DNA of 64,000 nt from contig OZ025887.1 in the NCBI GenBank assembly GCA_964019415.1, positions 5,264,450 to 5,328,449 on the forward strand, in the 5' to 3' direction. Position 1 is the stretch's first letter. Each line of letters begins with the position of its first letter. Both the position numbers and the translations under genes were made by a program. The notes under the pieces were generated by a model. That model searched no databases, had not been told where the DNA came from, and saw only the letters and a program-made list of their open reading frames with translations. Positions 1 through 28,709 of this stretch are shown here, piece by piece. Source of the DNA: Ianthella basta (taxonomy: Eukaryota; Porifera; Demospongiae; Verongiida; Ianthellidae).

Positions 1-1
1 T

Positions 2-1825
2 GAAATTCAGAAATTGCACATCAATGCTTCCCTAGTGGTCCTGTCTGCCTGTGACAGTGCAAGAGGAGAGATTGTCAATGAAGGGGTTAACTCAGTGGCC
101 AGAGCAATACTTGCAGCAGGTGCCCAATCAGTTTTGGTGTCTCTAGTTCGAGTGCCTGACAAAAGTGCCAGCATCTTCATGCGGCTGTTCTACCGGTTCT
201 TAGCCCATGATGGTATGACTACCTCTGAGGCCCTCCAGAAGAGCTCCATGGGTGTGCGCTGCATCAAGTCCCTCACACAGCATGTGCACTGGGGTGGCTT
301 CCAGCTCATTGGACGCAACATCAAGATAGCATACAATGACAAATGCAAGTCAGCAAGAGTGGCCACACTGGTTGGTGACCCCACTCCCTTCCCCAGACTG
401 GAGCTTCTACAGCAACTGGAGAGAGCCATCTTCAGGAATGATCGTACTCCTCCCAGAGATGTAGTGTTAGTGAAAGGTTTGAGTTTCTACGATCCTGCAG
501 AAGTGGTGCGAGATTTTGTCTGCAAGCATTTCAAGCACTACCCAGGTGGAGTGTTCTGGTACAACGCTTCCAGTGAAGACCTCCTCGATGCCTCTGTGTC
601 ATTTGTGAAGGAAACCATGCCTGACTTGAAGACCATCCAGAGAGAGCCCACAGTGGAGAAGGTCAATGCAGCAGACAAGAAGAGGAGAAATGTACTGGAG
701 GGAAGTGGTGGGGAATCATATGACAATCACTATCGGCTGATCATCCTGGACCATCCTTCTAGCCTGGCTGCCTGCCTGAAGAAGATCCCCGAGATACACA
801 GCAGTCACAGTGACATCATCCTCATCCACTCTGCAGACACAGACAGAGATCAGTCCCTCACCAGGTGGGTTGACGAGAAGCTGGTGCGTGGCTGCACCCC
901 CATTGTTGCTGGTCATCTGGACAAATACGATGCCATTCAACGAATGGCATACAGCATCCTTCGTGTCAGCCACATCACCCCCTATGAGGAAGACTATGAG
1001 GCTTTTCATGTTCTTCAGCAGTTCTGCCGAGGTTGCTCCAGCTTGGTGAGGATGTTGGAAGGTATGCTGTGCCGAGAGGAACCAGACACAGAGCTGAGGC
1101 AGCTTGCTTCTGACATTGAGCGAATCCAGACCATGGAGCCAGCAATGTTGGCCAGGCCTGAAAGGCAAGACCTCCCTCAGACCAGTCCTGTAGCAGAGAA
1201 GAAAGGGTCATTCTTCAAGAGTAGGAGACAGGGCAAGAGCAAGGACAGAGCCAGAGGTGAAGGAAGAATGAGGAATGGCTTGATCGGTGAATCTCAATTG
1301 ACTGCTGAAGACCATGTTCAGTTGAGTGATAGCTATGAGAAACCTGCTCACCTCCTTACTCCAATTGGCATTCTTCTGGAAACACGAATGACCCCAGAAG
1401 AGCACTTCTTCCTGACTGCTCTAAGCTACATCACCCTGTACCCTGAGGCACACTCAGAGGGTGCATTCCCTTTCACAGACCAATTCATGGAACAACTGGC
1501 CGCTGTCATTGCGACAGCCAATGGCAGTACCACTGAATCACATACCCTTGTGATGAAACTGGAAGAACTTCATGTAATCAGGCGGTATCCTCTTCCACTA
1601 CTCTCTCCCCCAGACTATGAAAGCACTTTCAAACTCTTTTATGTCCCTGACTGTGTTGTCAGAGCAGTCAATTTCAACCTGGATGATTCCGACATTGCTT
1701 TCATTCTGACTACCTGCTCCACTGCAGTGCAGCACTTGTCAAAGCCACTCTCCTATCACACAGCACTCAAGAAGAAGGTTACACTACTGTCTGCCGACTT
1801 TGGTCTGTCAAATTTGCAGCAGTGA
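2..1825 (+). CDS. TPR-CHAT family protein, unit U1 (5' part outside window)
   Basis: The frame is open from base 2, so the gene begins to the left of the window and only the C-terminal 607 codons are present. The visible part starts just before the catalytic cysteine of the CHAT (caspase HetF associated with TPRs) protease domain, in the motif LSACDSARGE (Cys codon at 53-55). The CHAT domain continues to about base 310. A C-terminal region follows, with a degenerate NB-ARC-like segment (YPGGVFWYNASSEDLL, then RLIILDHPSSL) and a basic linker near 1200-1270 rich in Lys/Arg/Ser. It ends at a normal stop with a last-exon structure like that of U2 and U5. The sequence is nearly identical to U2 and U5 over the first 350 bases and diverges more towards the stop. 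No frameshift or stop is seen. CHAT proteases are cysteine peptidases of the caspase-like clan; the substrate is unknown. Confidence 0.85.
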   Translation, partial: EIQKLHINASLVVLSACDSARGEIVNEGVNSVARAILAAGAQSVLVSLVRVPDKSASIFMRLFYRFLAHDGMTTSEALQKSSMGVRCIKSLTQHVHWGGFQLIGRNIKIAYNDKCKSARVATLVGDPTPFPRLELLQQLERAIFRNDRTPPRDVVLVKGLSFYDPAEVVRDFVCKHFKHYPGGVFWYNASSEDLLDASVSFVKETMPDLKTIQREPTVEKVNAADKKRRNVLEGSGGESYDNHYRLIILDHPSSLAACLKKIPEIHSSHSDIILIHSADTDRDQSLTRWVDEKLVRGCTPIVAGHLDKYDAIQRMAYSILRVSHITPYEEDYEAFHVLQQFCRGCSSLVRMLEGMLCREEPDTELRQLASDIERIQTMEPAMLARPERQDLPQTSPVAEKKGSFFKSRRQGKSKDRARGEGRMRNGLIGESQLTAEDHVQLSDSYEKPAHLLTPIGILLETRMTPEEHFFLTALSYITLYPEAHSEGAFPFTDQFMEQLAAVIATANGSTTESHTLVMKLEELHVIRRYPLPLLSPPDYESTFKLFYVPDCVVRAVNFNLDDSDIAFILTTCSTAVQHLSKPLSYHTALKKKVTLLSADFGLSNLQQ

Positions 1826-27300: not shown

Positions 27301-28709
27301 TACAGCAACTGGAGAGAGCCATCTTCAGGAATGATCGTACTCCTCCCAGAGATGTGGTGTTGGTGAAAGGTATGAGTTTCTACGATCCTGCAGAAGTGGT
27401 ACGAGATTTTGTCTGTAAGCATTTCAAGCACTACCCAGGTGGAGTGTTCTGGTATAATGCTTCCAGTGAAGACCTCCTTGATGCCTCAGTGTCATTCGTG
27501 AAGGAGACCATGCCTGACTTGAAGACCATCCAGAGAGAGCCCCCAGTGGAGAAGGTCAATGCAGACAAGAAGAAGAGGAGCATGCTGGAAACAAGTGGTG
27601 CTGAATCATATAATAATCACTATCGACTGATCATCCTGGACCATCCTGCTAGCCTGTCTTCCTGCTTGAAGAAAATCCCAGAGATGCAAAGTAGTCACAG
27701 TGACATCATCATCATCCACACTGCAGACACAGACAGAGATCAGTCCCTCACCAGGTGGGTTGATGAGAAGCTGGTGCGTGGCTGCACCCCCATTGTCGCT
27801 GGTCATCTGGACAAGTATGATGTTATTCAACGAATGGCATACAGCATCCTTCGTGTCAGCCACATCACCCCCTATGAGGAAGACTATGAGGCTTTTGATG
27901 TTCTTCAGCAGTTCTGCCGAGGTTGCTCCAGCTTGGTGAGGGTGTTGGAAGGAATGTTGTGCAGAGAGGAACCAGATATAGAGCTGAGGCAGCTTGCTTC
28001 TGATATTGACTGCATCCAGACCATGGAGCCAGTGGTAACCAGGCCTGAAAGGCAAGACCTCCCTCAGACCAGTCCTGTAGCAGAGAAGAAAGGGTCATTC
28101 TTCAAGAGTAAGAGACAAGGCAAGAGCAAGGACAGAGCCAAAGGTGAAGGAAGAATGAGGAACGGCTTGATCAGTGAATCTCCTGGATTGACTGCTGAAG
28201 ATCATGTTCAATTGAGTGATGGCTATGAAAAACCTGCTCGCCTCCTTACTCCAATTGGCACTCTTCTAGAAACACGAATGACCCCAGAAGAGCACTTCTT
28301 CCTGACTGTGCTTGGCTCCATCACCCTGTACCCTGAGGCACACTCAGAGGGTGCATTCACTTTCACAGACCAATTCTTGCATCAACTCGCCACTGTCATT
28401 CCAAAAGCCGATAATGCTACCACTGAACCACATACCCTTGTGAGGAAACTAGAAGAACTGCGTTGCATCCGGCAGTACCCTCTAGCAGTATTGTCTCCTC
28501 CTGATTATGACTGCTCTTTGAAGCTCTATTACGTCCCTGACTGTGTTGTCAGAGCAGTCACTTTCAGCCTTGAAGAAGCTGACATTGCTTTCATTCTGAC
28601 TACCTGCTCCACTGCAGTGCAGCACTTGTCAGAGCCACTCTCCTATCACTCAGCCCTCAAGAAGAAGGTTGCACTACTGTGTGCTGAGATTGGGCTACCT
28701 CATGGGTAG
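18309..28709 (+). CDS. TPR-CHAT-pseudoSTAND protein, unit U5, complete 8-exon model
   Basis: Proposed exons are 18309-18468, 18757-18840, 19071-19454, 19524-19694, 19812-20114, 20221-20490, 22916-23335 and 23899-28709. All introns are GT-AG, all joints are phase 1, and every internal exon is a multiple of three (84, 384, 171, 303, 270, 420). The total is 6603 nt, about 2200 aa. Exons 2-4 encode Pro/Ser/Gln-rich linkers. Exons 5, 6 and 7 each encode a short, probably helical module. The last exon carries a TPR array, a proline-rich linker, the CHAT protease (His about 1563 in HIATHGSG, Cys about 1613 in LSACDSARGE), an NB-ARC-like region lacking a Walker A lysine, a basic linker and a winged-helix-like end. 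CHAT domains are caspase-clan cysteine peptidases often paired with TPRs. No signal peptide or membrane helix is seen, so it is likely cytosolic. Exon 1 is the least certain part. Confidence 0.85.
18941..19049. repeat. (CA)n microsatellite in U5 intron 2
   Basis: Nearly pure CA with two cacg variants, at the same intron position as the longer (CA)n in U3. Confidence 0.97.
21264..21523. repeat. (TG)n - inverted repeat - (CA)n composite palindrome
   Basis: A (TG)n tract (21264-21372) is followed by an inverted repeat: ccacctgttggtca...gagcatgc near 21382 and tgaccaacaggtgg ending at about 21471. A (CA)n tract follows (21480-21523). The core is foldback-like, and the two microsatellites are themselves complementary, so the whole 260 bp can form one long hairpin. 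Confidence 0.85.
22514..22733. repeat. 86-bp tandem repeat, about 2.5 units
   Basis: agctgtagcagta starts at 22514, 22600 and 22686, exactly 86 bases apart. The units differ at a few positions (catcatggg, catcgtggg, catcggggg). The U2-side paralogue at 4663 has one unit fewer. Confidence 0.9.
23592..23663 (-). tRNA. tRNA-like sequence, probably a tRNA-derived SINE head or tRNA pseudogene
   Basis: The minus strand gives a 72-nt cloverleaf. The acceptor stem is GGTGTCG/CGGCGCC (7 pairs with two G-U). The D stem is GCTC/GAGC with loop AGTGGCTA. The anticodon stem is CTGAC/GCCAG with one A-C mismatch, the variable loop is ATGTC, and the T stem is a perfect CTGGG/CCCAG with loop TTTGATT. A-box (TAGCTCAGTGG) and B-box (GGGTTTGATTCC) promoter elements are good. 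The anticodon loop is AGCTAAA, with G instead of the near-universal U at position 33 and a nominal CTA anticodon. These features argue against a working tRNA. It lies in the U5 intron between exons 7 and 8. Confidence 0.5.
23716..23814. repeat. Hairpin MITE in U5 intron 7
   Basis: The left arm gttgctaactatagagttaattgctgc is the reverse complement, with a few mismatches, of the right arm gcagcaattaactctgtagttagtagc. About 35 bases separate the arms. The paralogue is at 5638-5733. Confidence 0.75.

Follow-up and report, generated by a model that had tools for sequence, protein, structure and literature searches.

What kind of gene is arrayed in the first part of a 64,000-nucleotide stretch of the genome of the demosponge Ianthella basta, and what might its products do? 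The window, by which that whole stretch is meant, was placed at positions 5264450-5328449 of contig C20 (OZ025887.1) in the animal's own genome (209 Mb in 96 contigs, about 23 of which are inferred to be of chromosome size). Its positions 1-28709 carry plus-strand copies of a gene in which tetratricopeptide repeats (TPR) precede a CHAT protease domain, which is related to caspases and of a bacterial type. The array marks one end of a larger family, whose 15 copies are spread over three chromosomes, and the assertion in an earlier note on this DNA that the genes are animal was supported by Wnt exon matches in the genome (34, best E 1.8e-66; none across 14 control genomes) together with introns bearing GT/AG borders. 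The data are read here, at somewhat less than even confidence, as a lineage-specific, recently expanding animal TPR-CHAT cysteine protease family with, by analogy to fungal and bacterial systems, a likely innate immune or regulated cell-death output.

The CHAT protease and its predicted catalytic dyad

A search with the Pfam CHAT profile (PF12770), proposed in the earlier note, matched the large exons of both long uninterrupted copies in the window, U5 (E 1.7e-47, 162.7 bits) and U2 (E 3e-47, 161.9 bits), against a cut-off of 24; the copy cut by the window edge, U1, still scored 80.6 bits. The large exon of U5 (23899-28709, stop included) encodes in order a TPR region (residues 111-500, positions 24192-25361, borders chosen around Pfam matches), a linker, a pre-CHAT region (residues 641-842, 25782-26387), the CHAT domain (residues 843-1116, 26388-27209) and a C-terminal extension (residues 1117-1615, 27210-28706). 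Pre-CHAT and CHAT together align over the pre-protease part and the protease of Csx29 and separase, and comparison of the predicted fold placed the domain in the caspase/separase clan. The predicted catalytic residues His978 (codon 26793-26795) and Cys1028 (26943-26945) are invariant in all 15 rows of alignment A4, which included 13 of 15 bacterial loci and excluded L048 and L049. Both U2 and U5 carry HIATHG and LSACDS motifs, in line with the earlier statement that every checkable long copy keeps its His and Cys; for U1 only the Cys half lies within the window, the His being intact outside it. Profile, alignment and fold comparison thus agree on a TPR-CHAT protein with both residues, and judged by their sequences the family proteases look catalytically competent. 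Padloc and NCBIfam profiles gave TPR-level or weak matches only.

Organisation of the array

U5 is the sole window copy with all conserved exons, having E1 (19127-19426, ends approximate, poorly conserved), E2 (19514-19708, ends approximate), E3 (19812-20114), E4 (20221-20490) and E5 (22916-23335) upstream of the 4.8 kb exon. AG acceptors precede E3, E4, E5 and the large exon, and the donors of E3, E4 and E5 are GTAAGT, GTAAAG and GTACGT, respectively. Between copies on contigs C2 and C20 the ratio of nonsynonymous to synonymous divergence (dN/dS) is 0.38 for E3, 0.36 for E4 and 0.31 for E5, and these exons are therefore coding.

The earlier description of five head-to-tail units of one family holds as to family and strand and requires correction as to the units. 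U1 (1-1825) is, as described, the 3' end of a copy (L011) cut by the window edge, containing the last part of CHAT, catalytic Cys included, and the C-terminal extension, and its large exon continues open outside the window. The large exon of U2 (L017; approximately 5817-10636 including the stop, its start set at the conserved AG acceptor) is open through TPR, pre-CHAT, CHAT and C-terminal extension, so that complete large exons in U2 and U5 were rightly reported; U2 is nevertheless incomplete as a gene, since its E4 is a remnant with an in-frame stop (3072-3140), its E5 is shortened and frame-broken (4975-5313) and E1-E3 were not found. U3 (12125-14539) contains stops and is a pseudogene as claimed, its corrected extent being E1-E5 and, of the large exon, no more than the first 75 residues or so. 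The supposed single fragment U4 resolves into two separate pieces, one from late in the large exon within the C-terminal extension (16585-16734) and one from E3 (17623-17856), the latter 97.6% identical to U5 DNA across 166 bases. Chance resemblance is excluded by DNA identities to U5 of 91.5% for the U1 part and 92.2% for the U2 part, and among the three long array copies (L011, L015 and L017) the large exons diverge by 6.4-7.7% of their DNA, making them unlike duplicate haplotypes of one gene.

Between U3 and the U4 pieces an open frame (15685-16269) resembles by eye the C-terminal part of a retrotransposon integrase, with no Pfam match at E <=0.01. Downstream of the array, 33233-35128 on the minus strand is an rRNA methyltransferase frame (PF01189, E 1.1e-76), which we take to be NOP2-like.

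A separate TTC28-type gene

The whole-genome CHAT search gave 17 matches, counts from it being lower bounds. Fifteen are copies of the family, and the remaining two are pieces of one gene on contig C23. That gene has 12 TPR_12 stretches (E <=0.001) followed by CHAT (E 5e-36), and is assigned as a putative TTC28-type gene on this architecture rather than by comparison with TTC28 sequences. TTC28 is described as present in one or two copies per genome with a long TPR array followed by CHAT (PMC12314368).

The best-surviving alternative, which we nonetheless regard as rather unlikely, is that the family is an expanded animal offshoot of TTC28 with a cell-division or cytoskeletal role, in which CHAT would be a scaffold or a cell-cycle-regulated protease. 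The shared order of TPR then CHAT and the separase-like fold favour this, as do the coral papers that name TTC28 as the homologue of coral TPR-CHAT proteins (PMC9145168, PMC12314368). A clade of five family rows plus the C23 gene was also not rejected (approximately unbiased test, p-AU 0.389), although in this long-branched tree of 20 rows, with 5 of the 15 family copies and L048 excluded beforehand for its cut frame, it was not supported either. Against it, the separate C23 gene fits TTC28 better, and its CHAT is 30% identical to that of U5 by tblastn over 193 columns (36% in alignment A3) and reads HFATGVS where the family has HIATHGS, with loss of the HG of the His motif; the family moreover carries 5' exons and a C-terminal extension peculiar to it. 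Set against each other are 15 copies, with three TPR_12 stretches in U5 (E <=1), and a single C23 gene with 12; the two may be co-orthologues.

Ten of the 15 prokaryote loci compared are cyanobacterial, and their CHAT domains are 34-36% identical to the family (26-35% for the other five loci). As the corresponding values for the C23 gene are 30% and 36% by the two methods, the family appears from these identities not clearly nearer to either. Horizontal gain from cyanobacteria was considered; the tree, with its very long branches and with animal CHAT sequences from this genome only, settles nothing on that point.

Copy number, recombination and selection

Nine family copies, every one of them on the minus strand, lie within 0.9 Mb of C2; C20 carries five in mixed orientations over 0.15 Mb, and C4 a single one. 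The large exon is open in ten copies (L009-L017 and L019, the match of L016 starting at residue 65) and broken in five (L018 and L020-L023). E3-E5 were detected in 13 of the 15 and are free of stops in eight of the ten open copies; in the stretch examined L016 and U2 are without an intact set. All 52 genome-wide matches to E3-E5 fall at family loci or on the short contig C31, where extra E3 and E4 pieces were seen with no CHAT match. L016 (C20:5136477-5146298) has an open TPR-CHAT exon and, as in U2, no intact upstream set, with no E2-E5 match in the stretch examined; these two perhaps form a class without the N-terminal module.

The birth-and-death evolution proposed in the earlier note is supported by the 15 copies, the five broken large exons, the presence of near-identical recent copies and one clear mosaic. 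Five C2 copies (L012, L013, L014, L018 and L022, two of them broken) have large exons 98.5-99.7% identical, L012 and L013 being 98.6-100% identical in each 800-base block throughout the 9.6 kb compared, and L014 is the mosaic, resembling L009 and then, from about base 2400, L013. In comparisons of C2 with C20 copies, two 60-codon blocks, starting at residues 1032 and 1072, stand out by a silent divergence of 0.064 and 0.066, every other block lying at 0.14-0.53; the two low blocks sit just past the catalytic Cys (U5 residues 1032-1131, window 26955-27254). Within C20, synonymous divergence (dS) between U5 and L011 is 0.36-0.45 in E3-E5, and that of the large exons is 0.10-0.25 by region. This dip, the higher dS of E3-E5 and the switch in L014 point to recombination or gene conversion homogenising the protease exon, though constraint on silent sites could also cause the dip.

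The ten open large exons entered the dN/dS analysis, in which values are Nei-Gojobori estimates from non-independent pairs rather than from a codon-model site test; the rows for pairs within C2 took in four of six. Alignment A1 comprised nine copies. Between C2 and C20 copies, dS being 0.16-0.37 by region, dN/dS is lowest in CHAT (0.11) and in residues 1117-1385 (0.15), followed by the TPR region (0.20) and the linker at residues 501-640 (0.27); the N-terminal linker, the basic linker and the final 150 residues reach 0.41-0.45. Not in line with simple constraint are the values for the N-terminal linker between U5 and U2 (1.9, from few changes at a dS of 0.015) and within C20 (0.65), for the linker 501-640 within C2 (0.82) and for the C2-C20 block from residue 1470 (0.89).

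These values also bear on the view that copy number is inconsequential, a single functional protease gene having been swept along by recombination in passive segmental duplication. Such a process would account for the five near-identical C2 copies, two of them broken, and for the identity of L012 and L013 across the entire compared stretch; however, ten of the 15 large exons are open and the older C2-C20 pairs are constrained (dN/dS 0.11-0.45), and we judge it improbable. An allorecognition or self/non-self family, whose protease would trigger cell death at contact, is least probable, being in keeping with birth-and-death copy number and with the discussion of CHAT proteases of fungal gasdermin systems in connection with allorecognition (PMC12881547), but not with the low dN/dS of TPR and CHAT.

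The N-terminal exons and the C-terminal extension

Neither the N-terminal exons nor the C-terminal extension contained a domain recognised by Pfam, and a PDB search with the extension gave a best E of 0.24. For E3-E5 of three copies, searched with Pfam to E 10, no death-fold domain (CARD, DED or Death) was found; the only match was to a phage family in two of the three (E 0.013 and 0.085), below cut-off. Matches of the extension to DDE_Tnp_IS1595 in all nine copies searched (best E 0.015) were likewise below cut-off and were dismissed. The structural model of the extension has a confidence (predicted local distance difference test, pLDDT) of 32, and its first 170 residues alternate strands and helices, the model being weak and no fold search having been made from it. 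Read by eye, the extension resembles a degenerate NB-ARC with a winged helix after it, a likeness that no profile supports; no P-loop motif was seen by eye. An NB-ARC or NACHT domain in the extension was sought with Pfam in nine copies and with hhalign and hmmsearch using NB-ARC- and NACHT-like profiles from the same genome, and received no support.

A possible role

Under the favoured reading of an animal protease family with a defence or cell-death output, the protease would stay switched off until the TPR superhelix, together with the flanking parts, has bound a ligand or partner, and would then cleave one specific protein. The likeliest output would be an innate immune or regulated cell-death response, by analogy with the part that fungal and bacterial TPR-CHAT proteins play in cell death and defence (PMC12881547, PMC9729208). 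Duplication, and recombination among the copies, would change their number over time, the protease exon being homogenised.

Several observations weigh against this. The TPR region is under purifying rather than diversifying selection (dN/dS about 0.2), which argues against a fast-evolving pathogen-recognition surface and suggests that the region may bind a conserved partner. No Death, CARD or NB-ARC match was found in the family with Pfam, nor was any death-fold or NTPase domain recognised, and no gasdermin was matched in the genome, a search in which the controls were equally silent and which introns weaken. Against the Csx29 and separase rows, Foldseek TM-scores normalised to the query reach only 0.41-0.54, and bacterial CHAT rows went into the structure model, which depends on them. 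Of the five broken copies, three (L018, L020 and L022) retain the dyad too, so that what broken copies show counts for little as evidence. No start codon was found for U5, and E1 is poorly conserved. Similar coral genes are assigned in the coral papers to TTC28, a cell-division protein. The immune or cell-death role put forward in the earlier note is a conjecture, having for it the fungal and bacterial analogy and, against it or silent, the conserved TPR region and the lack of death-fold, NB-ARC and gasdermin matches.

A more elaborate version, that of a non-caspase initiator protease family maintained in many copies to set off regulated cell death, seems doubtful. In it the N-terminal exons would be helical adaptors, the TPR region would act as sensor for an active separase- or Csx29-like protease, and the C-terminal part would be a regulatory domain made of a degenerate NB-ARC-like unit plus a winged helix; the NB-ARC-like and adaptor components were read by eye and have no profile support.

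Other gene families in the genome

Neighbouring runs of Wnt exons were seen on C16 (1991483-2026924 and 174759-184125), suggesting a lineage-specific Wnt expansion there. The same contig carries three adjacent NB-ARC genes (L025-L027, C16:4832013-4875189), whose frames stay open for 1020-1040 codons and in which a hydrophobic stretch can be made out by eye ahead of NB-ARC. Papain-family matches number 45; none of the frames read, which were part of these, has the silicatein Ser. In two on C6 (L064 and L065) the CGSCWAF-type active-site motif is replaced, by eye, and their products are perhaps inactive.

Comparison with known systems

TPR-CHAT proteases connect bacterial defence, gasdermin-driven death in fungi and the separase fold. 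In bacteria, Craspase, the complex of the TPR-CHAT protease Csx29, is allosterically gated, its dyad closing from about 7 to 3 Å (PMC9729208); the genes described here are animal, with additional N- and C-terminal parts, and a CRISPR partner is not expected. Cyanobacterial TPR-CHAT proteins (L035-L043 and L048) have frames that, where whole, stop at the end of CHAT, whereas the sponge family extends 500 residues further. Separase is distinguished by profile, the family being matched by Pfam CHAT with no Peptidase_C50 match listed at E <=1. A fungal CHAT protease bearing TPRs activates gasdermin (PMC12881547), and the Podospora TPR-CHAT protein paired with a gasdermin shares the TPR-CHAT arrangement, the likeness being one of description.

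For animals, the literature found in the searches made offers TTC28, the coral expansions and, in some animals, fusions of TRADD-N to TTC28-like TPRs (PMC8195603). TTC28/TPRBK shares TPR followed by CHAT, a layout whose TPR and CHAT roles within TTC28 are described as not well understood (PMC12314368); the TTC28-type gene of this sponge stands by itself on C23, its TPR array being longer and its His motif degenerate. The occurrence of that gene beside many copies with an intact dyad renders the use of active CHAT proteases by animals, and its purpose, directly testable.

The coral TPR-CHAT genes of Acropora and Montipora are among the closest in kind, sharing TPRs N-terminal to a single CHAT and a tandem, lineage-specific expansion; the sponge family likewise joins TPR to one CHAT and is multi-copy through duplication in an animal. 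Coral genomes are reported to hold 6-362 such genes with extensive tandem duplication, Nematostella 15 and metazoans outside the anthozoans mostly one or two, and the TPR stretches of two Acropora to run from 31 to 3,832 residues (PMC12314368), and duplication from a canonical TTC28 has been proposed for Montipora (PMC9145168). Set against the published descriptions of the corals, the sponge copies number 15 and share a single conserved TPR region, with, in addition, a module of N-terminal exons and 500 residues following CHAT. Expansion of TPR-CHAT genes in an animal is thus not new in kind; what differs from the published cases is the architecture, in these added parts at both ends, and the presence of a TTC28-type gene apart from the expanded family.

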